From Paramicrobacterium agarici (GTDB lineage Bacteria; Actinomycetota; Actinomycetes; Actinomycetales; Microbacteriaceae), in assembly GCF_002563955.1 (NCBI RefSeq), contig NZ_PDJE01000001.1, forward strand, positions 2,976,001 through 3,040,000: a stretch of DNA of 64,000 nucleotides, given 5' to 3'. Positions 21,030 through 36,685 of this stretch are shown piece after piece (position 1 is the first letter of the stretch; every line of letters begins with the position of its first letter). The notes beneath the pieces are model-generated. The model made no database searches, was not told where the DNA came from, and saw only the letters and a list, made by a program, of their open reading frames with translations. A program made the position numbers and the translations under genes.

Positions 21030-22058
21030 TCAGCGCTGCGGCGTGACGATGGATTTGAGGGTGTCGGACCGACCCGTCGATTCGAGAGCCTGCTGCACCT
21101 CGTCGAGCGGGAATCGACCCGTGACAAGGGCATCGAGGTCGACCTCGCCTCGCTCGACGAGGCCGATCGCTGTCGGCCACGTGTTGGCGTAGCGGAAGAT
21201 CCCGGTCACGATGAGCTCGTTGTTCTGAATGGTCGTGACCGGCAGCGGAATCTCACTCGCACCCATGCCGACGAGCACAACGGCTCCGCCGGGGCGAACC
21301 TCGCCAAAGCCCGAGCGCACCGCTGGCGCGGCCCCCGATGCGTCGACGAACGCGTCGACGTCGAGTCCGAGCGAGCCGACGGACTCCGCGGACGGGTCGA
21401 TGACTCGTGTGGCACCGAAACGCAGCGCCTGCTCACGACGGGCCGCGTCGAGGTCGGTAACGATGATCTCTGCAGCGCCGTAGGCCTTCGCGACCTGCGC
21501 GGTGATGATGCCGATCGGGCCGGCACCCGTGATGAGCACACGTGAGCCGACCGTGAACCCGGCCTTGCGGGCGGTGGCGACGGCAACCGAGAGCGGTTCG
21601 AGAAGCGCAGCGGCCTCAAGGCTGACCGAGTCGGGAACGGTGTGCGCGAAGTGCGCCTGAATGACGGCGTACTCGGCGAACGCTCCGTCGACGCCGGGTA
21701 CCGCGTAGAACTCCATGGCCGGATCGAGGTTGTACTGACCCGCCATCGACTCGCGCGACGTCGGGTCTGGACGCTGGGGCTCGATCGAGACGCGCTCTCC
21801 GACACGGTTGGCGTCGACGTCGGAGCCGACGGCGACGATCACGCCAGCCGACTCGTGTCCCAGAATGAGCGGCTCGTCGACGACCCAGTCGCCGAGGCGC
21901 CCTTCTTTGTAGAAGTGCACGTCGGAGCCGCAGACGCCGACGGCTTCGATGCGCACGAGCACCTGATCGGCGTCGGGGACGGGAATCTCGCGCGACTGCA
22001 CCTCAAGCGACGTTGCTGCCGTGAGCACGCTCGCACGCATTCGACCGGTTTCCGACAT
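21030..22058 (-). CDS. Medium-chain polyol dehydrogenase lacking structural zinc site
   Basis: 342 residues, sorbitol/xylitol-dehydrogenase group. Catalytic zinc residues are present: C-G-S-D-V-H, G-H-E-S-A-G and the Glu following. The NAD fold is G-A-G-P-I-G-I. The structural-zinc lobe, normally four cysteines before G-x-Y-N-L, reads R-P-D-P-T-S-R-E-S-M-A-G-Q-Y-N-L with none, as in some animal sorbitol dehydrogenases. Expected to oxidise a secondary hydroxyl of a polyol to a ketose. It is last on the minus strand behind a DeoR-type regulator and an RbsABC-like importer, so it probably acts on the imported polyol. Confidence 0.85.
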   Translation of the reverse strand: MSETGRMRASVLTAATSLEVQSREIPVPDADQVLVRIEAVGVCGSDVHFYKEGRLGDWVVDEPLILGHESAGVIVAVGSDVDANRVGERVSIEPQRPDPTSRESMAGQYNLDPAMEFYAVPGVDGAFAEYAVIQAHFAHTVPDSVSLEAAALLEPLSVAVATARKAGFTVGSRVLITGAGPIGIITAQVAKAYGAAEIIVTDLDAARREQALRFGATRVIDPSAESVGSLGLDVDAFVDASGAAPAVRSGFGEVRPGGAVVLVGMGASEIPLPVTTIQNNELIVTGIFRYANTWPTAIGLVERGEVDLDALVTGRFPLDEVQQALESTGRSDTLKSIVTPQR

Positions 22059-22096
22059 GATGCTTCTCCTGATTTCTCGACGGCTGTGTGCCGCCG

Positions 22097-22900: not shown

Positions 22901-22923
22901 GATGCCCCCTGAGAGTGGAACCC

Positions 22924-22965: not shown

Positions 22966-22980
22966 GAGATTGATACGGTG

Positions 22981-23955
22981 TCAGCCTTCCAAACTGAATT
23001 CTGTCACCTGGTCGGCGTTTTCCTCAGTGATGAGCGTGCAGTCGAATGCCTGCTTCTCAGAGTCGACGCCGGTCTCACCCGTTGTCAGGTAGCTGTCGAT
23101 CTGGTCGACGACGGCCTTCGAGAAGTCGACGACCGGCTGCAGCACCGTGTACGCGAGCTCACCGTCCACCACGGCCTGGATGGCCTCGGGCGATCCGTCG
23201 AATCCGCCGACGACGACGTCATCGAGCTTCTTCGCCTGCTTGAGCGCGGCGATCGCACCGAGCGCCATCTGGTCGTTGCCCGAGATGATTCCCTTGATGT
23301 CCGGGTGAGCCTGCAGCATCACCTGGGTCTTCTCGAATCCCTTGTTCTGATCCCAGTCAGCGGTCTCCTGCTGAACGAGCTCGAGGTCGGGGTACTGCTC
23401 GAGGACGCTCTTGAAGCCCTCGGAACGCACGACGGAGTTGGAGTCTGTCGACTCTCCGACGAGCTCGACGTACTTTCCTTCGCCGCCCATCGCCTTGACG
23501 AACTGCTGGGCGGCCAGAACGGCGCCCTGCGCGTTGTTCGACACGAGCTGCGACTTCGCGATTCCGGCCTCGTTGATCTCGGCGTTCACGAGGAACACCG
23601 GGATGCCGGCATCCTCGGCCTTCTGCACGTTTCCGATCGACGAGTCGGCACCCGCGGGGTCAAGAACGATCGCAACGGAGTCGTTGCTGATCGCGGTGTC
23701 GATCAGGTCGCTCTCCTTCTTGGGGTCGTAGTCGTGCGACGAGATCTTGGCTGTGTAGCCCTTCTCCTCCGCAGCATCCTTGACCGTCTGTGCCTCGGTG
23801 CTCCAGAACGGGTTGTCGAGGGGCGGCGTGATCACCGAGATGAGGCCGCCCTCTGTCGACTTCGCCTCTTCTTCTGAGGAGCCTGAACAGGCGGTCGCCG
23901 TGAGTGCCACGACGGCCCCCATGGCCAGCGCCATCGCTGCCTTGCGCAGATTCAT
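22981..23955 (-). CDS. RbsB-like sugar/polyol ABC substrate-binding lipoprotein
   Basis: 324 residues. Signal with R4-K5, a hydrophobic core and A-T-A-C lipobox, Cys at 23. The periplasmic-binding-protein type 1 fold follows: P-P-L-D-N-P-F-W, A-I-V-L-D-P-A-G-A, I-P-V-F-L-V-N-A-E, I-I-S-G-N-D-Q-M-A-L-G-A. It binds a sugar or polyol outside the membrane. Together with DUF2291, ATPase and permease genes it matches tetritol-type importers. AAAGGA precedes the ATG. Confidence 0.9.
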   Translation of the reverse strand: MNLRKAAMALAMGAVVALTATACSGSSEEEAKSTEGGLISVITPPLDNPFWSTEAQTVKDAAEEKGYTAKISSHDYDPKKESDLIDTAISNDSVAIVLDPAGADSSIGNVQKAEDAGIPVFLVNAEINEAGIAKSQLVSNNAQGAVLAAQQFVKAMGGEGKYVELVGESTDSNSVVRSEGFKSVLEQYPDLELVQQETADWDQNKGFEKTQVMLQAHPDIKGIISGNDQMALGAIAALKQAKKLDDVVVGGFDGSPEAIQAVVDGELAYTVLQPVVDFSKAVVDQIDSYLTTGETGVDSEKQAFDCTLITEENADQVTEFSLEG

Positions 23956-24000: not shown

Positions 24001-25095
24001 TCAGGAGGAGGATGCTGCCGCAGGTGCACGCGGCGACACCGCCTCCTTCTTCTTCGAGGAGCGCTTTGTCTTGACTTCGACGGCGTTGAGCATGACGGCC
24101 AGCACAATGACCGCGCCCTTGAACACCATCTGCCAGTACTCGGAGACGCCGACGATCACGAGGCCGTCGCCGAGGAAGCCGATCACGAACGCACCGAGCA
24201 ATGTGCCGCGAATCGTGCCTTTTCCACCCATGAGCGATGCTCCGCCGATGACGACGGCGGCGATGGCCGTGAGCTCGTAGGAGTCTCCCGCCTGCGGGGT
24301 CGCGCTCGTGAGCTCAGATGTGAGGATGAGTCCCGCTGCTCCCGCGAACAGGCCGGCGAGCACATAGACGCTTACCTGCACCTTCTTGACGGGGATGCCG
24401 GAGAGCGCTGCCGCGCGCTCGTTGCCACCCGACGCGTACAGCCAGCGGCCGAACGGGGACTTGTTCAGCACCATGCTCATGATCGCGGCGATCACGATCA
24501 TGACGATGACGCCGATGGGAATGATCCAGATCGAGTTGAAGCCGACCCAGTTGAACCCGGTGTTGCCGAGCGCCTCTTCACCGCGGAGCTTGGGGAACGT
24601 GCGGCCGTTCGTGATCAGCAGCGCGATTCCGCGCACGACGTACATCATGCCGAGGGTGGCGACGAACGGAGCCACCTTGAACCGCGCGACGAGCATGCCG
24701 TTCACCCAGCCGACGGCGGCACCGACGGCGAGGGAGATGAGCACGACGACCCAGACGGCAGGGTACGCGATCGCCTCTGTGAGCGGCAGATCGACCCCCT
24801 GCAGCAGGTACCCGGCGACAACCCCCGAGAGCGCGACCGTCGACCCGACGGACAGGTCGATGCCCGCGTTGAGGATGACCATGAGCATCCCGATCGCGAG
24901 AATCGCGTTCACGGCGACGTGGCGGGTCATGACGATCAGGTTGTCAACCGTGAAGAAGTTGTCCGAGAGGAACGAGAACACGATGATGATGACGAGAAGG
25001 GCGATGAATGCGCGCCCCTCAAGCAACACCTGACCGATCGTCATTCCTTCGGGAAGGAGCCCCCGCTTCTTGGGAGCTGTTTCCGTGGCGTTCAT
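24001..25095 (-). CDS. RbsC-like ABC permease
   Basis: 364 residues, about ten membrane helices. I-L-N-A-G-I-D-L-S-V-G-S and G-G-N-E-R-A-A-A-L-S-G are the RbsC-family motifs; the latter contacts the ATPase. A charged tail of about 25 residues follows. Its ATG overlaps the ATPase stop (ATGA), so the two are coupled. Forms the membrane channel of the importer, probably as a homodimer. Confidence 0.92.
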   Translation of the reverse strand: MNATETAPKKRGLLPEGMTIGQVLLEGRAFIALLVIIIVFSFLSDNFFTVDNLIVMTRHVAVNAILAIGMLMVILNAGIDLSVGSTVALSGVVAGYLLQGVDLPLTEAIAYPAVWVVVLISLAVGAAVGWVNGMLVARFKVAPFVATLGMMYVVRGIALLITNGRTFPKLRGEEALGNTGFNWVGFNSIWIIPIGVIVMIVIAAIMSMVLNKSPFGRWLYASGGNERAAALSGIPVKKVQVSVYVLAGLFAGAAGLILTSELTSATPQAGDSYELTAIAAVVIGGASLMGGKGTIRGTLLGAFVIGFLGDGLVIVGVSEYWQMVFKGAVIVLAVMLNAVEVKTKRSSKKKEAVSPRAPAAASSS

Positions 25096-26639
25096 GAGAG
25101 TGTTCCGTTCGTTTCTTCGACCGCCTCGCCAGACGCGGCCATGATGTCTTCTTTCGTCGCCTCAGACGAGTGGAATTCGGCGACAACAGAGCCCTTGCTC
25201 ATGACGAGCACGCGGTTCGCGACGCCGAGGCACTCGGTCACCTCAGAGGTGCTGTAGAGCACGGCGAGACCGTCTTTCGCCATTTCGGCGAGCAGATGGA
25301 AGACCTCGGTCTTCGCGCCGATATCGATTCCGCGGCTCGGCTCGTCGAGCAGGATCACCTTGGGGCCGGTCTGCAGGATCTTGCCGATCACGACCTTCTG
25401 CTGGTTTCCGCCGGAGAGTGAGGTGATGGGTGCGCGCGGCCCCGCGGTCTTGATGTGCACGTCGGCGATGCTCTTGAGGTTGCGCTTGTGCTCTTTCTTG
25501 TCGTCGAGCCACGACGCTTTCGAGATCGCGGGAAGACTTGCGAGTGAGAGATTGCGGCCGACGGACAGCGCCTGGATCATCCCGTCGCGCTGCCGGTCCT
25601 CTGGCACAAGTGCGAGGCCCGACGCGATGCGGTCGCCTACGGAGAGTCCCGCGAGGTCGTCACCGTCAACGGTGAAGTTCCCCTCGACAATGTCTCCCCT
25701 GCCGGCAAGAGCCTCGAGCAGCTCTGTCCGTCCGGCCCCCATAAGCCCGTAGATGCAGACGATCTCGCCCTTGCGCACCTGCAGGTCCACGCCGTAGACG
25801 GCCAGGCGCTCCGGGTTGGTGGCGTCAACGACGCTGACGCCGTTGACGTCGAGGGCGACGTCGCCGAAGCCCGCCTCGTCCGGCGGTGTGCCGAGGTCGA
25901 ACTCGGCGCCGACCATCTGCCTCACGATCCACGGCAGGTCGACGTTCGATACCGGCTCTGTCGCGACAAGCTCGCCGTCGCGGAAGACGACGCAGTAGTC
26001 GGAGACCTGCAGCGCCTCCTCGAGGTGGTGCGAGATGTAGACGATCGAGACACCGTCTGCGCGCAGATCGTTGATCACCTTGAACAGCACGTCAACCTCT
26101 GAAGCACTCAGTGCCGACGTCGGCTCGTCCATGATGAGGATGCGCGCGTCTTGCGACAGCGAACGCGCGATCTCAACGATCTGCTGCTGCCCGAGCCGGA
26201 GCTCAGAGACGCTGGCGCGCGGGCTGATGTCTTCTTCGAGCCGGCTCATAAGCTCGGCGACGATCTTCTCTTCTGCGGCGTAATCGACGGTTCCCGCTGG
26301 AGTGCGCAGCTCTCTGCCCATGAAGATGTTGTCGCGCACGTTGAGGTTCGGTGCGAGACTCAGCTCCTGGTGAATGATCGAGATTCCGCGGTCTGTCGCC
26401 TCTGTCGTCGACGCGAACTCAACCGGCTCGCCGTAGAGCTCCAGGGTGCCGCCCGTCGGCTTCTCGACTCCCGAGAGAATGCGCATGAGCGTCGATTTTC
26501 CGGCCCCGTTCTCGCCGAACAGGGTCGTCACCTTGCCGCGATGGATCTCGAAGTTCACGCCCTTAAGCGCACGGGTCGCGCCGTAGGTCTTCGAGATGTT
26601 CTGCGCGCGCAGGATCACCTCGTCGGAATGCGCCGTCAT
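25092..26639 (-). CDS. RbsA-like sugar ABC transporter ATPase (two domains)
   Basis: 515 residues, two fused ATPase domains as in RbsA/MglA. Domain 1: G-E-N-G-A-G-K-S-T, signature L-R-L-G-Q-Q, Walker B I-L-I-M-D-E-P-T-S-A-L. Domain 2: degenerate Walker A G-L-M-G-A-G-R-T-E-L, L-S-G-G-N-Q-Q-K and V-I-L-L-D-E-P-S-R-G-I-D-I-G, as normal for the family. Drives import with the permease and binding protein. Overlaps DUF2291 upstream and the permease downstream, both by ATGA. Confidence 0.94.
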   Translation of the reverse strand: MTAHSDEVILRAQNISKTYGATRALKGVNFEIHRGKVTTLFGENGAGKSTLMRILSGVEKPTGGTLELYGEPVEFASTTEATDRGISIIHQELSLAPNLNVRDNIFMGRELRTPAGTVDYAAEEKIVAELMSRLEEDISPRASVSELRLGQQQIVEIARSLSQDARILIMDEPTSALSASEVDVLFKVINDLRADGVSIVYISHHLEEALQVSDYCVVFRDGELVATEPVSNVDLPWIVRQMVGAEFDLGTPPDEAGFGDVALDVNGVSVVDATNPERLAVYGVDLQVRKGEIVCIYGLMGAGRTELLEALAGRGDIVEGNFTVDGDDLAGLSVGDRIASGLALVPEDRQRDGMIQALSVGRNLSLASLPAISKASWLDDKKEHKRNLKSIADVHIKTAGPRAPITSLSGGNQQKVVIGKILQTGPKVILLDEPSRGIDIGAKTEVFHLLAEMAKDGLAVLYSTSEVTECLGVANRVLVMSKGSVVAEFHSSEATKEDIMAASGEAVEETNGTLS

Positions 26640-27289
26640 TTGCCGACCTCGAGCGAGACGGGCGTCACGACGATCAGCTGAGGGTTGAGCGGCGCGGTGG
26701 CTCCTGTGACGGTGACGGTCTTGCCGACGAGGGACTCGACGTCGATCGGGTCGAGCACACTCTCCTTCATCATCTGGTTGAAGACGGCACCGACTTCCTG
26801 GTAATCGAGCTGGTTGGTGAACATCGAGAATGACACCTCGCCTGTCGCGTCGCGCAGGGCCGTTCCGATGATGCCCGGGTTTCCGGTCTGGATCGCCGCC
26901 TGGGATTCGTCGGGCATGCCCTCGACATCGACGAGCAGATTTCCGGCTTCAGCGTCGTATTCGCTCACGACGCCCGTGAACGACACGGAGTACGTGGGTG
27001 ACGGGCCATCGCCGACGCCGTACTCTTCTGCGGCAGCGGCCGGGTCGTCGGCGAGTGCCTGCGCGACTTTCGGGAGCTCGACGGCGTTCTCGGTGATGCC
27101 GGCGACGATCAGGGATTCGTAGTTCTCTTCGGCGAAGACCTTCGGGTCATTGCCCGACGACGACGCCTCGGCGGCTTCGTCCGGAGTGAGGTACGTGGTT
27201 CCGATGGTCCCCATGGCGACGACCGTGATCACGGCGATCGCAGCGATGATCCACGGGGATTTGCGGGACCTCTTCTGTGCGTTCGACAC
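26636..27289 (-). CDS. DUF2291-like membrane-anchored protein of sugar importer operon
   Basis: 217 residues. One N-terminal membrane anchor (about 11-33) after a basic K-R-S-R-K-S start; the rest is outside the cell, with V-S-F-T-G-V-V, L-V-D-V-E-G and T-V-T-V-T-G-A strands suggesting an OB-like fold. DUF2291 proteins occur in actinobacterial and proteobacterial operons with RbsABC-type importers; their role is unknown. GTG at 27289 after GAGGAAG. Overlaps the ATPase gene, so it is part of the transport unit. Confidence 0.75.
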   Translation of the reverse strand: MSNAQKRSRKSPWIIAAIAVITVVAMGTIGTTYLTPDEAAEASSSGNDPKVFAEENYESLIVAGITENAVELPKVAQALADDPAAAAEEYGVGDGPSPTYSVSFTGVVSEYDAEAGNLLVDVEGMPDESQAAIQTGNPGIIGTALRDATGEVSFSMFTNQLDYQEVGAVFNQMMKESVLDPIDVESLVGKTVTVTGATAPLNPQLIVVTPVSLEVGK

Positions 27290-27363: not shown

Positions 27364-28401
27364 CTAGATGTCGAGCAGAACGCGCGACTCGGTGTCGTTC
27401 GGGCGGATCTGCAGCTTGCGGCCGGTGCCCGCGCGGAACTTCTCAAGGGCGCTGGAGTACTCGTCGAGGGTGAACGAGTGGCTGATCATGGGGGTCGGGT
27501 TGATCGCGCCTGCCTCGAACATCGCCACGGCGCGGCCGAAGGTGTTGAGCACGGCCATGGTGCCGACGATGTTGATCTCGTCGCGGTACACGCGGAACGG
27601 CGAGTAGTGGGCTGTCGCCTCTGCCGGCGCGACGCCGAAGTGCTGGAAGGTGCCTCCGGCCTTGACGCGGGGCAGCGCGTCTTCGATGGCGGGAATGGCT
27701 CCCGTGCAGTCGATCACGACGTCCCACTTCTCGATGCCGAGCTCACGGGAGGCATCGTCTGCCTTCGTGTAGGTGTTCTCGACGCCGACGTCGCGCGCGG
27801 CCTGCAGGCGGCCCTCGTTGAGGTCGACGACCGTCACGCTCGCGGCACCCGCACGCGGTGCGAGCTGGGCCATGAGCAGGCCCATCGTGCCTGCACCGTA
27901 GATGAGGTAGGTCTCGCCCATGCGACGCGGGAGCAGGTCGTACCCGCGAATCGCGCACGCGAGCGGCTCGATGAGCGCGGCCTCGTGAATGTCGGTTTCG
28001 GGACGCAGCTTGAATACGTTGGCGCGCGGTGCGGACAGGTACTCAGCCGAGGCACCGTCGCTCGCGACAACGCCGAGGCCGTTCCACGAGCGGCAGAGGT
28101 TCTGGCGGCCGTTGAGGCAGAACTCGCACTCGCCGCACGTCGTGCTCGGGTTGATCGCGACGTGGTCGCCGACCGCGATATCTGCGACGTCCGCTCCCAC
28201 AGCCGTGACGACGCCCGTCGCCTCGTGCCCGGGGATGAGCGGATAGACCGTTCCCTCGAACTCGCCGTCGAAAACGTGCGTGTCTGTGCCGCAGATGCCG
28301 ACGGCGGCGACCTTCAGCACGACGTCATTCGCACCGGGCTCCGGTGCGTCTACCTCTTTCAGCGCCAGGTTATGTGCGTCTTCAAAAACTATTGCTCGCA
28401 T
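27364..28401 (-). CDS. Zinc-dependent polyol dehydrogenase (possible erythritol/threitol dehydrogenase)
   Basis: 345 residues, medium-chain dehydrogenase. Catalytic zinc: C-G-T-D-T-H, G-H-E-A; structural zinc: four cysteines in C-G-E-C-E-F-C-L and N-L-C are all present. NAD fold G-A-G-T-M-G-L. First gene of the importer operon, divergent from the kinase gene at 28685. Known tetritol pathways use such an enzyme (EltD) to turn erythritol or L-threitol into L-erythrulose, which the neighbouring kinase would take. Role by context; D-arabinitol-type substrates are also possible. Confidence 0.75.
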   Translation of the reverse strand: MRAIVFEDAHNLALKEVDAPEPGANDVVLKVAAVGICGTDTHVFDGEFEGTVYPLIPGHEATGVVTAVGADVADIAVGDHVAINPSTTCGECEFCLNGRQNLCRSWNGLGVVASDGASAEYLSAPRANVFKLRPETDIHEAALIEPLACAIRGYDLLPRRMGETYLIYGAGTMGLLMAQLAPRAGAASVTVVDLNEGRLQAARDVGVENTYTKADDASRELGIEKWDVVIDCTGAIPAIEDALPRVKAGGTFQHFGVAPAEATAHYSPFRVYRDEINIVGTMAVLNTFGRAVAMFEAGAINPTPMISHSFTLDEYSSALEKFRAGTGRKLQIRPNDTESRVLLDI

Positions 28402-28514
28402 GGCCGGTGACCTTCCCGCCGATCGCTCGTGGATCGGCTCACGATCCCGATGGCCGTGGTTCGCGAGGGGTGCTGCCCACGTCCTTGGGGAGTGCTATTC
28501 GATACATCTAACGT

Positions 28515-28546
28515 ACCGTTTTATCAGGTACGCCACCGTTCTATCA
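28515..28546. promoter_or_regulatory. Two 12-bp direct repeats upstream of divergent polyol operons
   Basis: ACCGTTTTATCA (28515-28526) and ACCGTTCTATCA (28535-28546) differ at one base and are exactly 20 bp apart, two helical turns, so they present the same face of DNA. Nearby, at 28573-28584, is the perfect palindrome ATGTTAGAACAT, and CGATAA/TTATCG flank it at 28567-28572 and 28601-28606. The AT-rich island (about 28500-28630) stands out and must hold both promoters. Candidate operators for the DeoR-type regulator at 22097. Confidence 0.55.
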
Positions 28547-28684: not shown

Positions 28685-30409
28685 ATGACCCGGCTGTGGA
28701 ACGATCCGGCTGATTTCGCCGATGAGATGGTCGATGGGTTCGTGCGCGCGCACGGACGGTGGGTGCGCAAGGTCACGGGCGGGGTCGCCCGTTCGACGCA
28801 ATCCGCCGACCCCACAGTGTCGCTCGTCATCGGCGGCGGTTCCGGCCACTACCCCGCGTTCGCCGGACTCGTCGGCCCGGGCCTCGCACACGGTGCCGCC
28901 ATGGGAAACCTGTTCGCATCGCCCTCGGCGCATCAGGTGGAGTCGGTTGCCCGCGCGGCCGATCAGGGCCGCGGCATCCTCTTCAGCTACGGCAACTACG
29001 CCGGGGATGTGCTCCACTTCAATGCCGCGCAGGATGCCCTGCGCGAGGCCGGCATCGATTGCCGTACGGTGACCGTCACCGATGACATCTTCAGCGCCAA
29101 GCCGAACGAGCGCGAGAAGCGCCGGGGCATCGCCGGGGATCTCACGGTCTTCAAGACGGCGGGTGCAGCGGCAGCATCCGGATTCCCACTCGACGATGTC
29201 GAGCGCATCGCCCGAACCGCCAACGACCGCACCCGCTCCATGGGCGTCGCCTTCACCGGCTGCACGCTCCCCGGCGCCGACGAGCCGCTGTTCACCGTTC
29301 CCGAGGGCCGCATGGCGATCGGACTTGGCATCCACGGCGAACCCGGAATCGACGAGACCGACATTCCCACCGCGAACGAGCTCGCCGAGCTCTTCGTCAG
29401 CCGGCTTCTCGACGACGCCGAGATCCCCGAGAACGTCACCGTCGACGGAGCGCGCGTTGTTCCCATTCTCAACGGTCTCGGCTCGGTCAAGAGCGAAGAG
29501 CTCTTCGTCGTCTACGCCCGCATCGCCGAGCTGCTCGACGAACGCGGCCTAACGGTCGTCGACCCGCAGGTCGGCGAGTTCTGCACGAGCTTTGACATGG
29601 CCGGCGCCTCGCTCACGCTCTTCTGGCTTGACGACGAGCTCGAGCAGCTCTGGTCCGCACCCGCCGACACTCCCGCGTACCGCACGGGCAACGTCGATTC
29701 AACGGCTCTCACGACGGTGACGACAGAGGATGCCGCCGAGAGCGACGAGCTTCCCGACGCCGACGAGGCATCGGCAGACGTCGCCGCCCGCATCGCGGAG
29801 CTTCTCGCCGTGGTGCGCGACGTCGTCGACGAGAACGTCGCCGAGCTGGGCCGCATCGACGCGATCGCCGGTGACGGCGACCACGGAATCGGCATGCAGC
29901 GCGGCACGGTCGCCGCAGCCGGTACGGCGGCGTCCCTCGCGGAGAAGCGCGCGGGAGCAGCGTCCCTTCTCGCACGCAGCGGCGACGCATGGTCGGATCG
30001 CGCGGGCGGCACCTCTGGAGCGCTCTGGGGCGTGATTCTTCGCACCATCGGCGACCACCTCGGAGACGCCGGCCGCCCCGATGCGGCGACGATCAGCGCG
30101 GGAGTGTCCCACGCCGCGCGCGCCGTCATGGACTACGGCAAGGCAGCGGTCGGCGACAAGACCATGGTCGATGCGCTCGTGCCGTTCGCCGAGGAACTGC
30201 ACCGTGCGGTTGACGCGGGCAGCACGCTGACAGAAGCCTGGACCGACGCCGCACGCGCGGCAACCGAGGCCGCGGAGGCGACGGCCGATCTCCTGCCCGC
30301 AATGGGCCGCGCCCGGTCGCACGGCGAGAAGGCGCTCGGCGTGCGCGACCCGGGAGCCGTCTCATTCGCTCTGATCACCACGCGCATCGCGGCCGAGCTC
30401 GGTCGCTGA
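28685..30409 (+). CDS. lerK: DhaK-DhaL fusion kinase, probable L-erythrulose kinase
   Basis: 574 residues. The DhaK part (about 1-330) has G-G-G-S-G-H-Y-P, G-D-V-L-H-F and G-I-H-G-E-P-G with the His that holds the keto substrate; the DhaL part (about 370-574) has A-G-D-G-D-H-G-I-G-M and G-G-T-S-G-A-L-W-G for ATP and magnesium. Plain dihydroxyacetone kinases share this layout, but the next two genes encode an RpiB-type and a TIM-type isomerase, exactly the set known to convert L-erythrulose 1-phosphate to D-erythrose 4-phosphate. I therefore favour LerK. AGGAG precedes the ATG at 28685 by five bases. Dihydroxyacetone kinase is the alternative. Confidence 0.72.
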   Translation: MTRLWNDPADFADEMVDGFVRAHGRWVRKVTGGVARSTQSADPTVSLVIGGGSGHYPAFAGLVGPGLAHGAAMGNLFASPSAHQVESVARAADQGRGILFSYGNYAGDVLHFNAAQDALREAGIDCRTVTVTDDIFSAKPNEREKRRGIAGDLTVFKTAGAAAASGFPLDDVERIARTANDRTRSMGVAFTGCTLPGADEPLFTVPEGRMAIGLGIHGEPGIDETDIPTANELAELFVSRLLDDAEIPENVTVDGARVVPILNGLGSVKSEELFVVYARIAELLDERGLTVVDPQVGEFCTSFDMAGASLTLFWLDDELEQLWSAPADTPAYRTGNVDSTALTTVTTEDAAESDELPDADEASADVAARIAELLAVVRDVVDENVAELGRIDAIAGDGDHGIGMQRGTVAAAGTAASLAEKRAGAASLLARSGDAWSDRAGGTSGALWGVILRTIGDHLGDAGRPDAATISAGVSHAARAVMDYGKAAVGDKTMVDALVPFAEELHRAVDAGSTLTEAWTDAARAATEAAEATADLLPAMGRARSHGEKALGVRDPGAVSFALITTRIAAELGR

Positions 30410-30442: not shown

Positions 30443-30901
30443 ATGACTGGACTGAGAATCGTGGTCGGCGGAGACGACGCCGGCTTCGCCTACAAAGAGC
30501 GCATCAAAGAAGACCTGCAGAACGACCCGCGGGTCGCATCGGTGACCGACGTGGGAGTGGATGCCGACAGTCACACGAACTACCCCCACATCGCCGTCGA
30601 CGCGGCGCGCCTCGTGGCCGACGGCGAGGCGGACAGGGCCATGCTGATCTGCGGAACGGGACTTGGCGTCGCAATCGCCGCGAACAAGGTCAAGGGAATT
30701 CGCGCCGTGACCGCGCACGACAGCTACTCCGTTGAGCGCTCGGTGCTCTCGAACAACGCGCAGGTGCTCTGCATGGGTCAGCGCGTCGTCGGAATCGAGC
30801 TCGCTCGGCGCCTCGTGAGCGAGTGGCTCGACTACACCTTCGACCCGACCAGCGCGTCGAACGAGAAGGTGCAGGACATCTGCGCCTACGAGGGCGACTA
30901 G
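30443..30901 (+). CDS. derI: RpiB-type sugar-phosphate isomerase, probable D-erythrulose 4-phosphate isomerase
   Basis: 152 residues, RpiB/LacAB family. [13 protein letters not shown] is the active-site motif with the catalytic Cys, and [15 protein letters not shown] the second. The N-terminal motif, usually D-H-A-G in ribose 5-phosphate isomerase, is G-G-D-D-A-G-F here, pointing away from ordinary RpiB. In tetritol pathways DerI turns D-erythrulose 4-phosphate into D-erythrose 4-phosphate, an intermediate of the pentose phosphate route. AGAGGA precedes the ATG; the next gene starts right at its stop. Confidence 0.72.
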
Positions 30902-31666
30902 ATGCCCGCCGCGGGGCATCCGATCACACTCGGCATCAGCCTCAAGATGTACTTCGACCACGAGCGCACGCTCTCGTGGTGCCGTGGAGTCGCCGAGATC
31001 GCGCGAGCGCATGACGCCGTGCGGTCAGGCAGAGCTACCCTGTTCGCCATGCCCTCGTTCGTGTCGATCTCAGACGCGCGCGACATTCTCAATGGGGCGG
31101 CAGAAGTGGGCGCGCAGGACATCGCGGCAGACGACGCGGGGGCGTTCACGGGAGAAGTGAGCGGCCCGCAGCTCGTGCAGGTGGGCTGCCGCTATGCAGA
31201 GATCGGCCATGCCGAGCGGCGCACGCTGTTCGGCGAGACCGACGATCTCGTCGCGCGCAAACTCGCCGCCGCCGTGCGCAACGGCATCACCCCCGTGCTG
31301 TGCATCGGCGAGGAGCAGCAGCTGACTCCCGCGGCCGCCGCCGAGGCGTGCGCGGAGCAGATCGCCTCGGCAAGCGCCCGTCTCGACGACAGCGCGACGC
31401 GCATGATCGTCGCCTACGAGCCGCAGTGGGCGATCGGCCAGGCAGAGCCCGCGCCCACCGACTACGTGCGCGAGGTCGCGCAGCGCTTGCGCGGCACTCT
31501 CGACGCAAGCGGTCGGGAGTCCTCGTCCATCCTCTATGGCGGAAGCGCCGGCCCCGGTCTCATCACCGAGATCGCCGACAGCGTCGACGGCCTGTTCCTC
31601 GGCCGTTTCGCGCACGACCCGCACGCTCTCGAGCAGATCCTCGACGAGGTCGACGCGCTCGCGTGA
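30902..31666 (+). CDS. lerI: TIM-like isomerase, probable L-erythrulose 1-phosphate isomerase
   Basis: 254 residues, triosephosphate-isomerase fold. Catalytic Lys (in S-L-K-M), His (E-I-G-H-A-E-R-R) and Glu (A-Y-E-P-Q-W-A-I-G) are kept, as is the phosphate loop Y-G-G-S-A-G. The usual N-W-K-M of glycolytic TIM is S-L-K-M, so the substrate pocket differs. Known LerI enzymes convert L-erythrulose 1-phosphate to D-erythrulose 4-phosphate. Starts immediately after derI, with a terminator hairpin overlapping its stop codon. Confidence 0.72.
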   Translation: MPAAGHPITLGISLKMYFDHERTLSWCRGVAEIARAHDAVRSGRATLFAMPSFVSISDARDILNGAAEVGAQDIAADDAGAFTGEVSGPQLVQVGCRYAEIGHAERRTLFGETDDLVARKLAAAVRNGITPVLCIGEEQQLTPAAAAEACAEQIASASARLDDSATRMIVAYEPQWAIGQAEPAPTDYVREVAQRLRGTLDASGRESSSILYGGSAGPGLITEIADSVDGLFLGRFAHDPHALEQILDEVDALA

Positions 31667-31693: not shown

Positions 31694-31699
31694 GCGCGG

Positions 31700-32557
31700 C
31701 TATCTCGCGACGGCGTCAAGCCGCAGCATCCGCGCGAGCACGGTGTCGAGCTCGTCGTCGCGGAACACCTTCTTCCAGTCATCTTTGATGATCGACTCGC
31801 GGCCGTAGTCCATGGCGATCAGGCACGCGTCGGAGAACGGATTGTCACCGTTGAGCGAGTTGGCGAGTGCGACCTGCGTATGACCGAGCAGAATCGCCCG
31901 CGCGGCAGGCTCGGGAACCCCCATGGTGTGCACGGCCTCGTGCAGCGACTCCTTGAGCAGGCCCCCGATCATGCACGCGATCGTCTCGACGAGCGTCGGC
32001 TCGAGCTGCGCGAGCTGCTTGACGGTGACCCAGTGCACGTCGATGACCGGAGCGTAGATGACGCGCACGGCCTCTTCGGCGATCGCCTTCTTCTCAGCAT
32101 CCTCTGACTCGATGGCCGCGACGACGTCTTGCGGAGCGGCGATGCCGCCGAAGGTGTCGGCGTATTCCTCGGGCGTGTGACGCTCGAGGAAGATCGAGGG
32201 GTGGCAGGGGTGGGCAACCGCGAAGACGACATCGTCGCGGGTGGCGAGCAGTCCCGCGTACGCTGCCGCTGGATCGAGCGTCAGGATGACGGCGCCCGGT
32301 TTCGCCTGCGGCACGAGCTCTGCCGACACCGCCTGCAGCGCGAGGTCGGGGACGGCGAGCACAACGACGTCTGCCTCGGCGACGGCGTCACTCGCGTCGG
32401 TGATCGTGCGGCCTGCCTCGCGCACGCGATCTTGGCCAGCGGGCGAGACCTCGCTGTAATACCCGTCGTGGCGTGACGTCGCGATGTTGTTAGACACTCG
32501 CATGCCCATCTTGCCGCCCGCGCCGATCACGGCGATGTTCAGCTGTGGCGTTGTCAT
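31700..32557 (-). CDS. apnO: Probable D-apionate oxidoisomerase
   Basis: 285 residues. NAD-binding Rossmann start I-A-V-I-G-A-G-G-K-M-G-M-R-V, then V-V-V-L-A-V-P-D, and an all-helical C-terminal domain of the phosphogluconate-dehydrogenase kind (H-P-C-H-P-S-I-F at the junction, K-Q-L-A-Q-L-E-P-T-L-V-E). This two-domain type includes ApnO, which oxidises and rearranges D-apionate to 3-oxo-isoapionate. Gene context agrees: OiaC-like gene overlapping upstream (ATGA), ApnL-like lactonase nearby, and LerK/LerI/DerI downstream. Symbol given on fold and context; another hydroxyacid dehydrogenase is possible. Confidence 0.68.
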   Translation of the reverse strand: MTTPQLNIAVIGAGGKMGMRVSNNIATSRHDGYYSEVSPAGQDRVREAGRTITDASDAVAEADVVVLAVPDLALQAVSAELVPQAKPGAVILTLDPAAAYAGLLATRDDVVFAVAHPCHPSIFLERHTPEEYADTFGGIAAPQDVVAAIESEDAEKKAIAEEAVRVIYAPVIDVHWVTVKQLAQLEPTLVETIACMIGGLLKESLHEAVHTMGVPEPAARAILLGHTQVALANSLNGDNPFSDACLIAMDYGRESIIKDDWKKVFRDDELDTVLARMLRLDAVAR

Positions 32558-33354
32558 GTGTTCATGCTCCTCACGTAGCGCACATTGTGTGCTGTCCATT
32601 CGTCCTCAAGCCGGAACGTCGTCTCTGCGTCGCCCTGCCAGGGAAGCCAGTGCTCGATGATCTGGTTGATGCCGCGTTCTTCGGGCTCGATCGCCGCGAT
32701 CATGCCGGCGTAGTCGAGCAGCCCCTCGCCGAGGGGCGCCCCCGTGAGCGAGAACCCGATCCAGCCCGCGTGGCGGGTGAACGCGAAGTCCTTGATGTGC
32801 ATGTTCACGACGTGCGGGGCGACGCGCGCGATGAGCTCTGCCGGGCTCTCGAGCGCCGCGACGCAGTTGGCGGGATCGCTGCAGATGCCGAGCCGCGGGC
32901 TTCCGATGCGCTCGACGATGCCAACGAGTGTGCTGGTCGGCACCTGCTCGTATGTCTCGAGTGCGATCGTCACCTCGGCTCGCTCGTATTCGGGAAGCAC
33001 CTCGCGCAGCAGTCCCTCGGCCTCGTTGTCGCCGGGGTGGTCGCCGGCTGTGGCGATCATGGTGCGCACAAGCGTCACGCCGAGAAGCTCGGCGATGTGC
33101 AGGAATCGGCGCAGGTGAGCGGGCCGCACTCCTCTCGTTCCCAGTTCGAGGCGGATGCCGAGGCCGTCGGCGATCCGCCACAGCTCACGCAGTTCGGCAT
33201 CGCTGCGCCGCTCGAGGGGCGGGTAATCGCAGACCTGGAACACGTCGGCGTCGAGATCGCGCGTCTTCTGCAGCATCCTCTCGAGTGAGAGGGGTTCTGT
33301 CGCGCGCTCCGACCACTGCCAGAAGAATGCGTACGTGCTGAGTCCGAGTGCCAC
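32554..33354 (-). CDS. oiaC: Sugar-isomerase-like TIM barrel, probable 3-oxo-isoapionate decarboxylase
   Basis: 266 residues, xylose-isomerase-like (AP endonuclease 2) barrel. G-L-S-T-Y-A-F-F-W-Q-W opens it; metal ligands are expected in I-A-L-E-T-Y-E, I-C-S-D-P-A-N-C and N-M-H-I-K-D-F-A-F. In apionate pathways OiaC decarboxylates 3-oxo-isoapionate to L-erythrulose, the substrate of the kinase at 28685. I start it at the GTG at 33354: a -35/-10 pair with 17-bp spacer (TTGACT, GATACT) ends seven bases before it, so the mRNA is leaderless. A longer frame upstream would run through the promoter and operators. Overlaps apnO. Confidence 0.68.
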   Translation of the reverse strand: MALGLSTYAFFWQWSERATEPLSLERMLQKTRDLDADVFQVCDYPPLERRSDAELRELWRIADGLGIRLELGTRGVRPAHLRRFLHIAELLGVTLVRTMIATAGDHPGDNEAEGLLREVLPEYERAEVTIALETYEQVPTSTLVGIVERIGSPRLGICSDPANCVAALESPAELIARVAPHVVNMHIKDFAFTRHAGWIGFSLTGAPLGEGLLDYAGMIAAIEPEERGINQIIEHWLPWQGDAETTFRLEDEWTAHNVRYVRSMNT

Positions 33355-33361
33355 GTCACTC

Positions 33362-33390
33362 AGTATCAACCGGTGACGCGAAATAGTCAA
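33362..33390 (-). promoter_or_regulatory. Leaderless promoter of oiaC-apnO
   Basis: TTGACT (33390-33385), 17 bp, GATACT (33367-33362), then seven bases to the GTG. The -35 box is part of operator site B, and a partial operator TCAACCGGTGA (33366-33376) lies in the spacer and -10, so a bound regulator would cover the promoter. Confidence 0.65.
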
Positions 33391-33399
33391 CCGGTTGAC
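33386..33399. promoter_or_regulatory. Operator site B, GTCAACCGGTTGAC
   Basis: Perfect 14-bp palindrome between oiaC and the FadR-type gene. Near copies lie on both sides: a partial site centred 21 bp to the left and site C centred 30 bp to the right, both near whole helical turns. A fourth stands before the SDR-apnL operon at 36735. Its presence at all three promoters marks it as the site of the FadR-type regulator. Confidence 0.7.
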
Positions 33400-33414
33400 C
33401 AAACAGGCGCTTTT

Positions 33415-33428
33415 GGTCAACCAGTTGC
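33415..33428. promoter_or_regulatory. Operator site C, GGTCAACCAGTTGC
   Basis: Imperfect copy of the operator, preceded by CTTTT like site D. It directly abuts TAGGCT (33429-33434), the -10 box of the FadR-type gene, suggesting autoregulation. Confidence 0.6.
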
Positions 33429-33440
33429 TAGGCTGAGTGC

Positions 33441-34175
33441 ATGCCTGCCTATCCCGGGGACTCCGCAACTCGCATCAGCGCCGAACTCGGCAGCGTGAGC
33501 GCGGGCAATTCGGTCCCCGAGATCGCTCGACGCATGCTCGACCTATTCACGAGCGGCAGCATCGAGGCCGGCACGCGCCTTCCGCCAGAACGTCAGCTGT
33601 CGGCGTCTCTCGGTGTCGGGCGTTCCGCGGTGCGCGAGACCCTCGCGGCTCTCGAGATTCTCGGCATCGTCGAGATCCGCCCCGGCTCGGGAACCTACCT
33701 GCGCGGCAGCGCCTCAGAACTGCTTCCCGAGACACTCAACTGGGGCCTCATGCTGAGCGCAGAGCGCACGACCGAGCTCATCGAGCTGCGCGGCGAACTC
33801 GAGGTGTCGGCGGCGACGTTCGCGGCCACGCGCGTGGATGCCGACCAGCTCGCGAGCCTGCGTGCGCACCTCGATGAGATGCGCGCTGGGCTCGACGATC
33901 TCCCCCGGTTCATCACGGCCGACGTCGCCTTTCACGTCGCCATCGCCGAGTCCGCGGGCAACACGGTGCTCACGGGAATGCTGCAGTCCGTGCGGTCGAT
34001 GCTGCGCCTGTGGGTCGAGCGCGGACTTCGTGATCGCACGCAGGCAGAGAAGGCTCTCGCGGAGCACGCCGCGATCGTCGCGGCACTCGAGAAAAACGAC
34101 GCGGATGCTGCAGCCGCAGCCATGCGCGCACACATGGCGACCGCCGGCGAGCGTCTCGCGTCAGAGACGACGTAG
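33441..34175 (+). CDS. FadR/GntR-family transcriptional regulator of the apionate genes
   Basis: 244 residues. N-terminal winged helix (about 20-85): L-P-P-E-R-Q-L-S-A-S-L-G-V-G-R-S-A-V-R-E-T-L and R-P-G-S-G-T-Y-L. C-terminal FCD ligand domain (about 95-235) with metal-type positions in F-H-V-A-I-A-E-S-A-G-N and E-H-A-A-I-V-A-A-L. FCD regulators sense small acids and usually repress. TAGGCT ends six bases before the ATG, no Shine-Dalgarno site, so leaderless. Three to four copies of one palindrome at its own and neighbouring promoters make it the likely controller of oiaC-apnO and SDR-apnL, with apionate or an intermediate as signal (inference). Confidence 0.85.
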   Translation: MPAYPGDSATRISAELGSVSAGNSVPEIARRMLDLFTSGSIEAGTRLPPERQLSASLGVGRSAVRETLAALEILGIVEIRPGSGTYLRGSASELLPETLNWGLMLSAERTTELIELRGELEVSAATFAATRVDADQLASLRAHLDEMRAGLDDLPRFITADVAFHVAIAESAGNTVLTGMLQSVRSMLRLWVERGLRDRTQAEKALAEHAAIVAALEKNDADAAAAAMRAHMATAGERLASETT

Positions 34176-34196: not shown

Positions 34197-35936
34197 TCAG
34201 TACGCCTGCCGCACGTAGTCCGTCGCAGGAACGACGAGAGCGCCGATGCCCTCGATCGTGAATCGCGCGTCGTCGTCGGCAACGTTTGCCACGAGAATCT
34301 CGCGCCGCTCGGGAAACGCGGCGCCCCAGCATCCGTCGGGCAGGTTCTCGAGGCGGCGCGTCAGCTCTCCTCCGCGAGCAATGAGCAGCTCGGCCGCGTC
34401 GGCCACCGGAAATCGCCCGGTCTCGTCGGCAAGACCTCGCGGCCCCCGCGCCTCGCCCAGGGTGATGCTCGCCACGTTGTCGATCGCGAGCGCGAACGTG
34501 CTCGCCATGACCCACGCCGCCATCGCGGGGCTCGTCTGCCGAGCATCCGTGGCCTCTGCGACACGCTCGGCGCCGTAACCGCCGCTCACATCTGTCGCAC
34601 GATCTGCCGCGTATGGCGTCGTCGCCACCGCGTTATACCGGGCGCGCAGCGTGACCGGGCCGACGTGCACAGCGGCACCGTCGGCGATGCGCACGGCGTT
34701 CTCGGCGACGAGGCGTTGCATGGCGATGGACTCGACGATCTGCGCGCGCTCGATGTCGTGCATCTGCGGAGTGATGCTGAAGGTCAGCGGTGCGTCCGGC
34801 AACCGTTCATGCGTGCGATTCAGCTCGGTGAAGTGCGCGCGCGTTCCCGCGACCAGTTCACCGCGAATGCCGCGCGCAGCCGCGGCGTCGCCCAGGACCC
34901 GCCAGAGAACAGGCTCGCTCACGTGTGTTGTCGCATCGAAAACCGCGAGGCGCGCAATCGGCAGCGGGGCAACAGCATCGACGAGCTGCGCAACGTCTGC
35001 CTCGTCTCGCGCGATGAGCCTCACGTCGAGCAGACCCTTTCCCGCGTCCTGCCGCGCACGCTCGAGGGCCGCCCGCCAGTTCGCGTCTCTCACATCGAGT
35101 TCGACGAGCGTGACCGGCGCTCGCACCTCATCGCGCGGTCGAGATGACTCGGATGCTGTCGATGCAGCGATGCCGATCTGAGGAAACACGCGCTCAGCGC
35201 CGAGCACGACCTCCTCGCGTTCTGGCGCGTCATCACCCGCGCCGCTTTCAGGGTCACCGTCGCACGTCACGGTGACGCTCTGCGCGACACGATCTCCCGG
35301 GTCCAGACGGACCGGAAAAGGCCTCTCGAGCGGCGTGCTGTAGGTCTTGAACGAGGCGTCTGTCCAGTTGCGCTGATCTTCCATTTCGAACACGTCGCCC
35401 GCGAAGTGCAGCCGAACGTCGATTCCCTGACGCGACCACTCGAGGCCCGCGATGTCGAGCGCAGGCTGGTGCGGGGCGATTGCGTCGGGAAACCGCGTCC
35501 GCGTCGACGTGCCGTCCGGATGCGTCACCCACAGCTGCGAACCGGCATCGCTCGGCCAGTGCAGCACGATGATGCCAATGCGGTTGCGGTCGAACGCAGA
35601 CTGCGCCACTCCCGAAAGGTCGACGCGCAGCTCGGTGTCGTCAAGCGACAGCGTGGCCGTCCACGCGAGGTCGACCTCGTTGCGCTGGCACCGCGCCGCA
35701 ATCGTGATGCTGCCTCCGTCTCCCCCGGTGACCGTCACGTCGCGCGGTTCGATCGTGCGCCAGTCGGCGTCGCGAACGACGACGCGCAGCGCTCGAAGAA
35801 CGGAGACTCCCCGGAACCGAATGTCGGCGAGTCCCGCTCCCACGCGATCCATACGCCACGGTCCATGCTCGATGGCGACGGCTGTGGGAGCGTCGTCGAG
35901 CCACCGAGCGGCTGCGGGCGTTGCGAATTCGGTCAC
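34197..35936 (-). CDS. apnL: Probable D-apionolactonase (ApnL-like)
   Basis: 579 residues, no signal peptide. N-terminal half is beta-rich (V-L-R-A-L-R-V-V-V-R-D, F-E-M-E-D-Q-R-N-W-T-D-A-S-F-K-T-Y), the C-terminal half contains a barrel-like pattern (V-R-L-I-A-R-D, L-T-F-S-I-T-P-Q-M-H, N-A-V-A-T-T-P-Y). I recognise this as the family of ApnL, which opens D-apionolactone to D-apionate. GTG start overlapping the SDR stop by GTGA. Placed with ApnO- and OiaC-like genes and the shared operator, which supports the role. Family recall is by motif and size, without a search. Confidence 0.62.
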   Translation of the reverse strand: MTEFATPAAARWLDDAPTAVAIEHGPWRMDRVGAGLADIRFRGVSVLRALRVVVRDADWRTIEPRDVTVTGGDGGSITIAARCQRNEVDLAWTATLSLDDTELRVDLSGVAQSAFDRNRIGIIVLHWPSDAGSQLWVTHPDGTSTRTRFPDAIAPHQPALDIAGLEWSRQGIDVRLHFAGDVFEMEDQRNWTDASFKTYSTPLERPFPVRLDPGDRVAQSVTVTCDGDPESGAGDDAPEREEVVLGAERVFPQIGIAASTASESSRPRDEVRAPVTLVELDVRDANWRAALERARQDAGKGLLDVRLIARDEADVAQLVDAVAPLPIARLAVFDATTHVSEPVLWRVLGDAAAARGIRGELVAGTRAHFTELNRTHERLPDAPLTFSITPQMHDIERAQIVESIAMQRLVAENAVRIADGAAVHVGPVTLRARYNAVATTPYAADRATDVSGGYGAERVAEATDARQTSPAMAAWVMASTFALAIDNVASITLGEARGPRGLADETGRFPVADAAELLIARGGELTRRLENLPDGCWGAAFPERREILVANVADDDARFTIEGIGALVVPATDYVRQAY

Positions 35937-36685
35937 AGCGTCGTCATTCCGCCGTCGACGCGAAAGAGGCTGCCCGTCGCGAACGCTGCCTCGTCGCTCG
36001 CGAGAAAGACCATGATGCCTTCCACGTCGGCGGGAGTTCCCGGCCGTCCGAGCGGAATGCGCGAAACGATCGCGGCGCGGGACTCCGGGTCGTCGGAGAT
36101 CGACGTGACAAGCGGAGTCTCCGTGTACCCTGGCACAACGGCGTTGGCACGGATCCCCTCTCGCGCATACGCGGCCGCGACCGTGCGCGTCAGCCCGTGG
36201 ATTCCCGCTTTCGTCGTGCTGTACGCCGTGAACTCGGCCCCTTCTCCGGTCAGACCCGTCGGAGACCCGGTGAGAATGATGCTTCCGCCTCGGCCGCGCA
36301 GCGCCCGCACGGCGTGCTTGACCGTCAGGAAGGTTCCGGTCAGGTTCACGTCAAGCGTGCGCTTCCAGACGTCGAGGTCGAGATCGGCGACCGGGGCGTC
36401 GTGGCCGAAGAGCTGCACACCGGCGTTCGCGACGACGACATCGAGCGCGATCCCGCGGCCGGCGATCTCGGCATAGGCCCGCTCAACGCTTCCCTCGTCA
36501 GAGACATCGAGTTCTACTCCGATGGCGTCGCGACAGCTCGCGGCGGCACGGTGAGCCGCCGCGCCGTCTCGATCCGAGAACACGACAGCTGCACCCTCGT
36601 GCGCGAAGCGCGTGGCCACAGCCTTGCCGATGCCCGAGCCTGCGCCCGTGACCAAAATGGATTTACCTGCTAGTCGTTCCTGCAC
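35933..36685 (-). CDS. Short-chain dehydrogenase/reductase, possible apiose dehydrogenase
   Basis: 250 residues, classical SDR. T-G-A-G-S-G-I-G is the coenzyme motif, N-A-G the structural one; the catalytic Ser (T-G-S-P-T-G), Tyr-x-x-x-Lys (Y-S-T-T-K) are present, and the end D-G-G-M-T-T-L is typical. GAGGAGG stands five bases before the GTG at 36685. First gene of the operon with the lactonase, so oxidation of D-apiose to D-apionolactone is the attractive guess; described apiose dehydrogenases are of another family, so this is inference. Confidence 0.8.
   Translation of the reverse strand: MQERLAGKSILVTGAGSGIGKAVATRFAHEGAAVVFSDRDGAAAHRAAASCRDAIGVELDVSDEGSVERAYAEIAGRGIALDVVVANAGVQLFGHDAPVADLDLDVWKRTLDVNLTGTFLTVKHAVRALRGRGGSIILTGSPTGLTGEGAEFTAYSTTKAGIHGLTRTVAAAYAREGIRANAVVPGYTETPLVTSISDDPESRAAIVSRIPLGRPGTPADVEGIMVFLASDEAAFATGSLFRVDGGMTTL

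Follow-up and report, generated by a model that had tools for sequence, protein, structure and literature searches.

Apiose is a hallmark sugar found in rhamnogalacturonan II and in many glycosides of plants. That the breakdown of apiose/apionate and that of tetritols converge on L-erythrulose is already established and is not a new idea. D-Apiose/D-apionate catabolism with ApnL, ApnO, OiaC and the kinase-isomerase set LerK-LerI-DerI was reportedly described by Carter et al. in 2018, and the tetritol catabolism of Mycolicibacterium smegmatis, with EltD-LerK-LerI-DerI, is said to have been worked out by Huang et al. in 2015. Here, we studied a locus of Paramicrobacterium agarici in which relatives of both gene sets are neighbors. 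The window, that is, the whole 64-kb stretch analyzed, covers positions 2976001 to 3040000 of a single-contig genome of 3.23 Mb (G000), and the locus lies at 21030 to 36685 of the window. Our preferred reading, which we hold with moderate confidence, is that two catabolic modules, mostly separate in other bacteria, share here one locus and one terminal triad of a DhaK-DhaL kinase (DAK), an RpiB-type and a TIM-type isomerase. We call them module T (a tetritol-type operon of importer and dehydrogenases) and module A (the apionate genes SDR-ApnL-GntR-OiaC-ApnO, where SDR is a short-chain dehydrogenase/reductase).

Like the D-apiose/D-apionate system, the locus has homologues of ApnO, OiaC and ApnL and a kinase-isomerase triad, with L-erythrulose as the predicted intermediate; it differs by an SDR in place of the Gfo/Idh/MocA dehydrogenase, by a distant ApnL, and by a triad that sits on another promoter, beside a tetritol-type operon. 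With the M. smegmatis tetritol system, compared by gene types, it has in common Zn dehydrogenases, a DhaK/L kinase, TIM- and RpiB-type isomerases and a CUT2 importer, but its substrate-binding protein (SBP) is far from 4rsm and 4rs3, and its triad is shared and not of the clade usual for the operon. Plasmids of Pantoea At-9b and Erwinia E602 (Erwiniaceae) carry a similar DAK-TIM-OiaC-ApnO operon with a divergent rpiB gene, but an MFS importer lies by the kinase, and at that operon no gene was recognized as belonging to the ApnL, SDR, tetritol or GntR kinds of the window. The OiaX-type apiose locus of Shinella H4-D48 is alike in ApnO, ApnL and a NanR-like GntR gene, whereas a kinase and an annotated RuBisCO-like OiaX stand for OiaC and the triad, and a Gfo/Idh/MocA gene lies beside ApnL. 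For a strain able to grow on D-apiose, one report (PMC11747546) describes a single cluster with apionolactonase, apiose dehydrogenase, apionate oxidoisomerase, and a kinase and a decarboxylase of 3-oxoisoapionate, and another (PMC13001218) describes a different route of apiose use in E. coli with two unassigned oxidoreductases. Among the matches listed by a literature search on apiose, threitol and erythrulose, outside which the key papers fell, no work joined apiose and threitol. The pathway chemistry is already known. As far as these searches show, what is new is that the two gene sets are merged and share a re-regulated triad, together with the SDR and a third operon described below.

Two separable modules

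We surveyed a panel of 299 genomes of the same family, P. agarici included. Orthologues of ADH1, the Zn-dependent dehydrogenase that leads the tetritol-type operon, were found in 15 other genomes at 71 to 84% identity, and the source names of these relatives are generic. The fullest arrangement (L153) reads ADH1-DUF2291-ATPase-permease-SBP-DAK-RpiB-TIM-DeoR-ADH2. DAK, RpiB and TIM genes are present in 11 of the 15 loci, one arrangement being counted twice (L165 and L166 are near-identical), and in 8 they stand directly between SBP and DeoR, a site where the window has only 80 bp. As for the remainder, the triad follows SBP in L158 and L159, where the contig stops at TIM or close to it, and follows ADH1 in L156, which is without this importer; the contigs of L160 and L161 end in or just past DAK, and no DAK, RpiB or TIM gene was seen at the ADH1 locus in L162 and L167. 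Tetritol would be the likeliest substrate of module T, given that L-threitol and erythritol are substrates of EltD and LerK and that LerI and DerI lead to erythrose 4-phosphate (PMC10733421). An enlarged locus of this type in G003 (L157) has two kinases, two RpiB matches, additional Zn dehydrogenases and SDRs, and it may serve tetritols of both the D- and the L-series.

The ApnO-like protein is 43% identical over 274 amino acids to the Shinella gene product and 56% to that of Pantoea; homology and linkage to apionate genes place it with ApnO, its activity being a prediction from sequence. Next to it, the OiaC-like protein is an AP_endonuc_2 TIM barrel, 52% identical to the Pantoea one. A scan of named genomes with ApnO gave at least 62 loci, and 40 of those listed are actinobacterial (L005 to L043 and L053; 64 to 82% identity). 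In the stretches seen of these 40, OiaC is present in all, DAK in 33, RpiB in 35, TIM in 37, ApnL in 12 and SDR in 9; an MFS gene occurs in 23 and a CUT2 SBP of the window kind in 5, never both together. Wherever at least 20 kb was seen (27 loci), DAK, RpiB, TIM and OiaC all accompany ApnO (27/27), and the association is therefore not due to chance. Within the family panel, ApnO was detected in 60 genomes, ApnL in 50 (48 of them with ApnO) and SDR in 46. In three loci (L176, L179 and L182), an SMP-30/gluconolactonase gene adjoins ApnL, in the first two along with a sugar SBP gene, possibly as an alternative lactonase or a sign of another aldose.

ApnO occurs in 8 of the 16 ADH1 genomes and in 52 of the 283 others (p = 0.006). 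Half of the ADH1 genomes thus lack it, so that modules T and A are separable, in agreement with the two halves that an earlier note on this DNA, made from the letters alone, had distinguished. Among the eight genomes with both genes, they are neighbors in P. agarici only; they lie more than 600 kb apart in G003, G017 and G135 and on different contigs in G016, G101, G130 and G267, although the separation is somewhat doubtful in the last three, whose assemblies are fragmented. A related union was seen in a Nocardioidaceae genome (L027, L034), where a tetritol-clade kinase, a DeoR gene, a 27% identical Zn dehydrogenase and a second kinase lie beside OiaC-ApnO-ApnL-SDR.

One triad probably shared by both modules

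That one triad is common to modules T and A in the locus is well supported, since the apiose clusters of G016 and G003 have no triad and the close kinases there lie only in module T. In G016 (two contigs, 100% complete), SDR-ApnL-GntR-OiaC-ApnO stands without a triad (L217), and the single DAK at E ≤ 1e-60 is inside module T. In G003, module A is equally bare (L218), with two DAKs in the module T locus L157 and a 37% identical one elsewhere. A further case of sharing is G135 (92% complete), whose sole kinase above 50% identity belongs to the third operon, L167 and L206 being without it. The remaining genomes are more varied: G017 has module A without a triad and three kinases above 50% elsewhere; G130 and G267 have one triad for each module; and G101 is too fragmented to judge.

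The kinase passes the NCBIfam subfamily model NF011049, misses that of glycerone kinase (TIGR02361; 354 against a cut-off of 575), and is 39 to 41% identical to the two Dak1 proteins that its own genome has outside triads. As far as this can be tested, then, it does not fall with plain dihydroxyacetone kinases, the outcome that the earlier note had named as telling against its reading. For the TIM-type protein, 178.5 bits against the cut-off of 293 of the best canonical triosephosphate isomerase model are compatible with a specialized LerI-like role. A third RpiB-family gene exists in the genome (at 2113507), and the window RpiB therefore need not be the pentose-phosphate enzyme. In the kinase tree, 12 of 13 tetritol-operon kinases form a clade with those of L027 and L034 (support 99/96), and the window kinase stands outside it. 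The TIM tree is in line with this (ten TIMs of tetritol operons group with SH-aLRT 93, and the group that includes the window has 87), and the RpiB tree does not resolve. A second kinase tree, with third-operon kinases added and two long-branch kinases (L072 and L044) omitted, groups the window kinase with five of the seven third-operon kinases (98 to 99; L204 and L205 fall elsewhere), near the apionate-operon kinases; with this placement, its description as simply apionate-type was dropped.

A candidate D-apiose dehydrogenase

The window gene next to ApnL encodes an SDR and lacks the fold of the Gfo/Idh/MocA-type D-apiose dehydrogenase. All 46 genomes with this SDR also have ApnL (46/46; Fisher p = 6e-50 with gene presence set by E-value and relatedness of the genomes ignored; by genus, SDR is found in 26 of 85 and ApnL in 28 of 85). 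The two genes are within 1 kb in 39 of the 46, within 3 kb in 1 and within 10 kb in 3, and they are far apart in the rest (105 kb in G087, separate contigs in G245 and G282). Four genomes have ApnL without the SDR (G056, G057, G228 and G267), and in the last of them an SMP-30-type lactonase gene adjoins ApnL. Relatives of the Gfo/Idh/MocA gene are rare: that of Shinella has one in 1 of the 299 genomes at E ≤ 1e-50 (G029, 41%), and the rhizobial one (L046) has none at 35% identity or more in the 40 listed actinobacterial ApnO loci. Elsewhere in the P. agarici genome, such a dehydrogenase gave 0 matches at E ≤ 1e-50, and this possibility was dropped. Because of this co-occurrence, the close pairing and the rarity of Gfo/Idh/MocA relatives, the SDR probably replaces that enzyme and is a candidate D-apiose 1-dehydrogenase.

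Predicted regulation

The palindrome AACCGGTT occurs in 27 of 41 regions upstream of GntR orthologues, whereas in 20 shuffles no four-base half-site exceeded 9. A matrix from 37 of these regions, the window's own included (four with 7 mismatches were omitted), had its top window sites at 33385 (24.3), 36734 (21.3) and 33415 (16.5), the next one scoring 11.9 and five shuffled windows 12.6 to 14.7. With up to 2 mismatches, the palindrome is found in the 3.23 Mb only at 33385 and 36734 of the window, and at 3 mismatches there are 21 genome sites (9 in all for the reversed control pattern). The window scan gave no site ahead of the kinase. An apiose importer sought by way of the palindrome was rejected, the genome scan having returned only the two window sites at up to 2 mismatches.

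For DeoR, an expectation-maximization (EM) search used 11 of 16 ADH1 upstream regions, with the window held out, L160, L162, L166 and L167 dropped, and the near-copies L158 and L159 among them. The search was started 60 times on the actual regions and 20 times on each of 6 mononucleotide-shuffled sets; the motif reached a log-likelihood of 73.9 versus up to 54.4, and its best two matches in the 64-kb window, at 28495 (12.8 bits) and 28575 (11.6), fall between ADH1 and the kinase. Counts of k-mers and palindromes upstream of ADH1 yielded no convincing DeoR site, so that the EM search is the single source of one. In many other loci, the triad follows a GntR/MFS divergent promoter.

Most likely, and with strong backing from the operator motifs, GntR governs oiaC-apnO and SDR-apnL, and, with less certainty, DeoR would govern the importer plus the triad. 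The DeoR- and FadR-type regulators proposed earlier are indeed distinct proteins (DeoR and GntR/FCD), but the triad goes with the DeoR half, for which the case is modest. If the triad is under DeoR, apiose use would need a DeoR response to a shared intermediate or help from the second triad of the genome.

Proposed pathway and alternatives

In module T, the CUT2 importer would take up a tetritol or similar C4 compound, which the dehydrogenases would oxidize to erythrulose. In module A, as homology and synteny suggest, the SDR would oxidize D-apiose to D-apionolactone, ApnL would open the lactone to D-apionate, ApnO would rearrange this to 3-oxo-isoapionate, and OiaC would decarboxylate the latter to L-erythrulose. 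The triad would then make L-erythrulose 1-phosphate (DhaK/L kinase), D-erythrulose 4-phosphate (TIM-type isomerase) and D-erythrose 4-phosphate (RpiB-type isomerase). From the motifs, GntR would control oiaC-apnO and SDR-apnL, and DeoR the importer and dehydrogenases as well as the triad, which shares their divergent promoter. This arrangement would require a DeoR inducer made by both branches, such as erythrulose or its phosphate.

Several observations weigh against this reading. All substrate assignments of the locus are predictions. The best solved relatives of the SBP are 5ibq (281 bits) and 4ry0 (280 bits), presumably structures of a single Rhizobium etli protein with bound apiose and ribose, and it is far from 4rsm (89 bits) and 4rs3 (86 bits), presumably M. 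smegmatis SBPs with tetritol/xylitol. Of the families that the earlier note had named for comparison, ApnO and OiaC were borne out by homology with conserved synteny, but RpiB and ApnL remain under the curated cut-offs: RpiB scores 146.8 bits with the rhizobial DerI model NF051858 (cut-off 240) and passes the actinobacterial ribose-5-phosphate isomerase model TIGR02133 (211 versus 168.2), and the ApnL-like protein, without a Pfam match at E ≤ 0.001, scores 181.6 bits with the D-apionate lactonase model NF049900 (cut-off 750), which the Shinella ApnL passes with 805.1 bits. The window protein is thus a homologue, which may act like ApnL judging by its context. The earlier claim that both sugars use one kinase-isomerase set holds for the locus but not for the whole genome, where a second kinase-RpiB-TIM triad is found at G000:C1:1120642-1123728. 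The second kinase copy of L157 falls outside the tetritol-operon clade, and G030 has ApnO, ApnL and SDR in a 1.8-Mb genome whose best kinase is only 39% identical. Finally, the GntR matrix was built with the window's own region, and the DeoR motif is AT-rich, which favors intergenic DNA, and has a small margin (next matches 10.6 and 10.2; training loci peak at 13.9 to 23.4). This margin slightly lowers our confidence in the reading.

The whole locus could instead serve apiose, with the importer bringing in D-apiose, the Zn dehydrogenases acting on apiose/apiitol, and no tetritol module. The solved SBP relatives would fit, if apiose is indeed the bound ligand, as would the CUT2 and DUF2291 genes that adjoin ApnO in Rhizobium-type loci. 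As the earlier note had remarked, no separate apiose importer is visible, and none was found in the genome, where an MFS query gave partial matches of 25 to 29% and the next full-length SBP was 31% identical. Yet ADH1 or ADH2 at 60% identity or more was present in none of the 40 listed actinobacterial ApnO loci (stretches seen), and half of the ADH1 genomes do without ApnO. The SBP tree joins 11 proteins from apiose loci of Rhizobia and other actinobacteria in a clade (80/99, moderate) that excludes the window SBP, which is nearest to L153 and L154 (70 to 72%) without a well-supported grouping. We therefore dropped the assignment as an apiose importer drawn from the 5ibq likeness, and we consider an apiose-only locus unlikely; the importer may take both tetritol and apiose.

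Doubts can also be raised about each module. The true substrate of ApnO, OiaC, ApnL and SDR might be some branched or C5 acid other than apionate: ApnL is a distant homologue (29% identity to that of Shinella), OiaC has no meaningful match in the single Shinella barrel with which it was compared and reaches only 28 to 30% in L044 and L045, and none of the scanned ApnO proteins matches an NCBIfam model able to test their identity. The likeness of ApnO to a Shinella gene that sits with OiaX, a kinase and a cut-off-passing ApnL, together with the presence of ApnO in nearly all ApnL genomes, makes another acid still less probable than an apiose-only locus. Least credible to us is that the modules are chance neighbors, the dehydrogenase-importer operon feeding a sorbitol/ribitol-type pathway and the triad serving apionate only. 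The sorbitol dehydrogenases nearest to ADH2, the kinase outside the tetritol-operon clade and the loose ADH1-ApnO association would agree with it, but the same operon includes DAK, RpiB and TIM in most other genomes, operon and triad flank a common divergent promoter in which DeoR-type motifs match, and G016 has a single close kinase for both modules.

Features of the locus and its surroundings

Every gene that the earlier note had listed as contiguous was found, none of them broken, and their third codon positions show the high GC typical of coding DNA (Table 1). On the minus strand, the order is ADH1, DUF2291, ATPase, permease, SBP, DeoR and ADH2; the triad runs divergently from ADH1 on the plus strand, followed by OiaC-ApnO (minus), GntR (plus, divergent) and SDR-ApnL (minus). 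Judging by strand, the locus would comprise about five transcription units, and divergent promoters would fall at 28402 to 28684 and between OiaC and GntR. Pfam identified two Zn dehydrogenases, DeoR, the CUT2 SBP, permease and ATPase, DUF2291, a Dak1-Dak2 fusion, LacAB_rpiB, TIM, PGDH_C (ApnO-like), AP_endonuc_2 (OiaC-like), GntR-FCD and SDR, and ApnL was recognized by NCBIfam homology. Likely starts, read from sequence and alignments, are internal to three open reading frames (ATG for DAK and ApnO, GTG for OiaC).

Table 1. Features of the locus (window positions)
Positions	Strand	Feature	Basis
21030..22058	-	ADH2, Zn-dependent polyol dehydrogenase; nearest solved, sorbitol dehydrogenases	Pfam; 85% to copy in tetritol-type locus L153
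22097..22900	-	DeoR-family regulator of tetritol-type operon	Pfam; 54-66% in nine tetritol-type loci
22981..23955	-	CUT2 substrate-binding lipoprotein (SBP), nearest tetritol-operon SBPs, outside apiose-locus clade	Pfam, tree
24001..25095	-	CUT2 permease	Pfam
25092..26639	-	CUT2 ATPase	Pfam
26636..27289	-	DUF2291 lipoprotein	Pfam
27364..28401	-	ADH1, Zn-dependent dehydrogenase, leads tetritol-type operon	Pfam, homologues
28402..28684	.	Divergent promoter region with two DeoR-motif matches (28495, 28575) and repeated ACCGTTYTATCA (28515, 28535)	
28652..30409	+	DhaK-DhaL fusion kinase, L-erythrulose kinase candidate, likely start 28685	Pfam, NCBIfam, trees
30443..30901	+	RpiB-type isomerase, D-erythrulose 4-phosphate isomerase candidate	Pfam, NCBIfam
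30902..31666	+	TIM-type isomerase, L-erythrulose 1-phosphate isomerase candidate	Pfam, tree
31700..32599	-	ApnO-like D-apionate oxidoisomerase, likely start 32557	Pfam, homology, linkage
32554..33468	-	OiaC-like 3-oxo-isoapionate decarboxylase, likely start near 33354	Pfam, homology, linkage
33385..33430	.	Two GntR operator-like palindromes (33385-33400, 33415-33430) between oiaC and gntR	
33441..34175	+	GntR/FCD regulator	Pfam
34197..35936	-	ApnL-like D-apionolactonase homologue, distant	NCBIfam below cut-off, context
35933..36685	-	SDR, candidate D-apiose 1-dehydrogenase (non-orthologous replacement)	Pfam, co-occurrence
36734..36749	.	GntR operator-like palindrome upstream of SDR-ApnL	Matrix and genome scan

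The glycerol genes GlpK, GlpF and GlpD (36828 to 41103) adjoin the locus. In L153, L163 and L164, too, ADH1 has a GlpD or GlpK homologue next to it or close by. An FMN riboswitch was found at 42319 to 42461 of the window (79.4 bits). Elsewhere in the genome (L072, G000:C1:876000-890000), another CUT2 importer operon has a xylulokinase-like FGGY kinase, an M29 peptidase-like protein, a 39% identical DhaK-DhaL kinase and an SDR.

A third operon and a possible erythrulose hub

The second triad of P. agarici lies in L070 (G000:C1:1112000-1131999, at 4326 to 11729), together with a GntP permease, an AP_endonuc_2 barrel, a dehydrogenase of the 3-hydroxyacyl-CoA dehydrogenase (3HCDH) family and another GntR gene. 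The barrel (69 to 83%) and the dehydrogenase (78 to 88%) recur with kinase and RpiB in G045, G050, G002 and G106, with TIM in three of the four; these sets have MFS and SDR genes and no GntP, and variants were seen in G135 and G017. The barrel is only 28% identical to OiaC over 112 residues. By analogy with the chemistry of OiaC, a possible reading is a 3-dehydrogenase acting on a C5 aldonate, followed by beta-decarboxylation to erythrulose, an apparently undescribed pentonate route.

More tentatively, and as a possibility that we would not yet put at even chances, the triad may be the plug-in end of an erythrulose hub in Microbacteriaceae, onto which tetritol, apiose/apionate (SDR-type) and undescribed 3-oxopentonate front ends fit, triads being lost, moved and re-regulated as front ends change. 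In the third front end, the 3HCDH-family enzyme would make the 3-oxopentonate and the AP_endonuc_2 barrel would decarboxylate it. The locus is a testable case of two rare-sugar pathways with a common end module. It supplies a candidate D-apiose dehydrogenase of a new type and predicted operators for two regulators, and it points to yet another entry into this possible hub, a third route that seems not to have been described.

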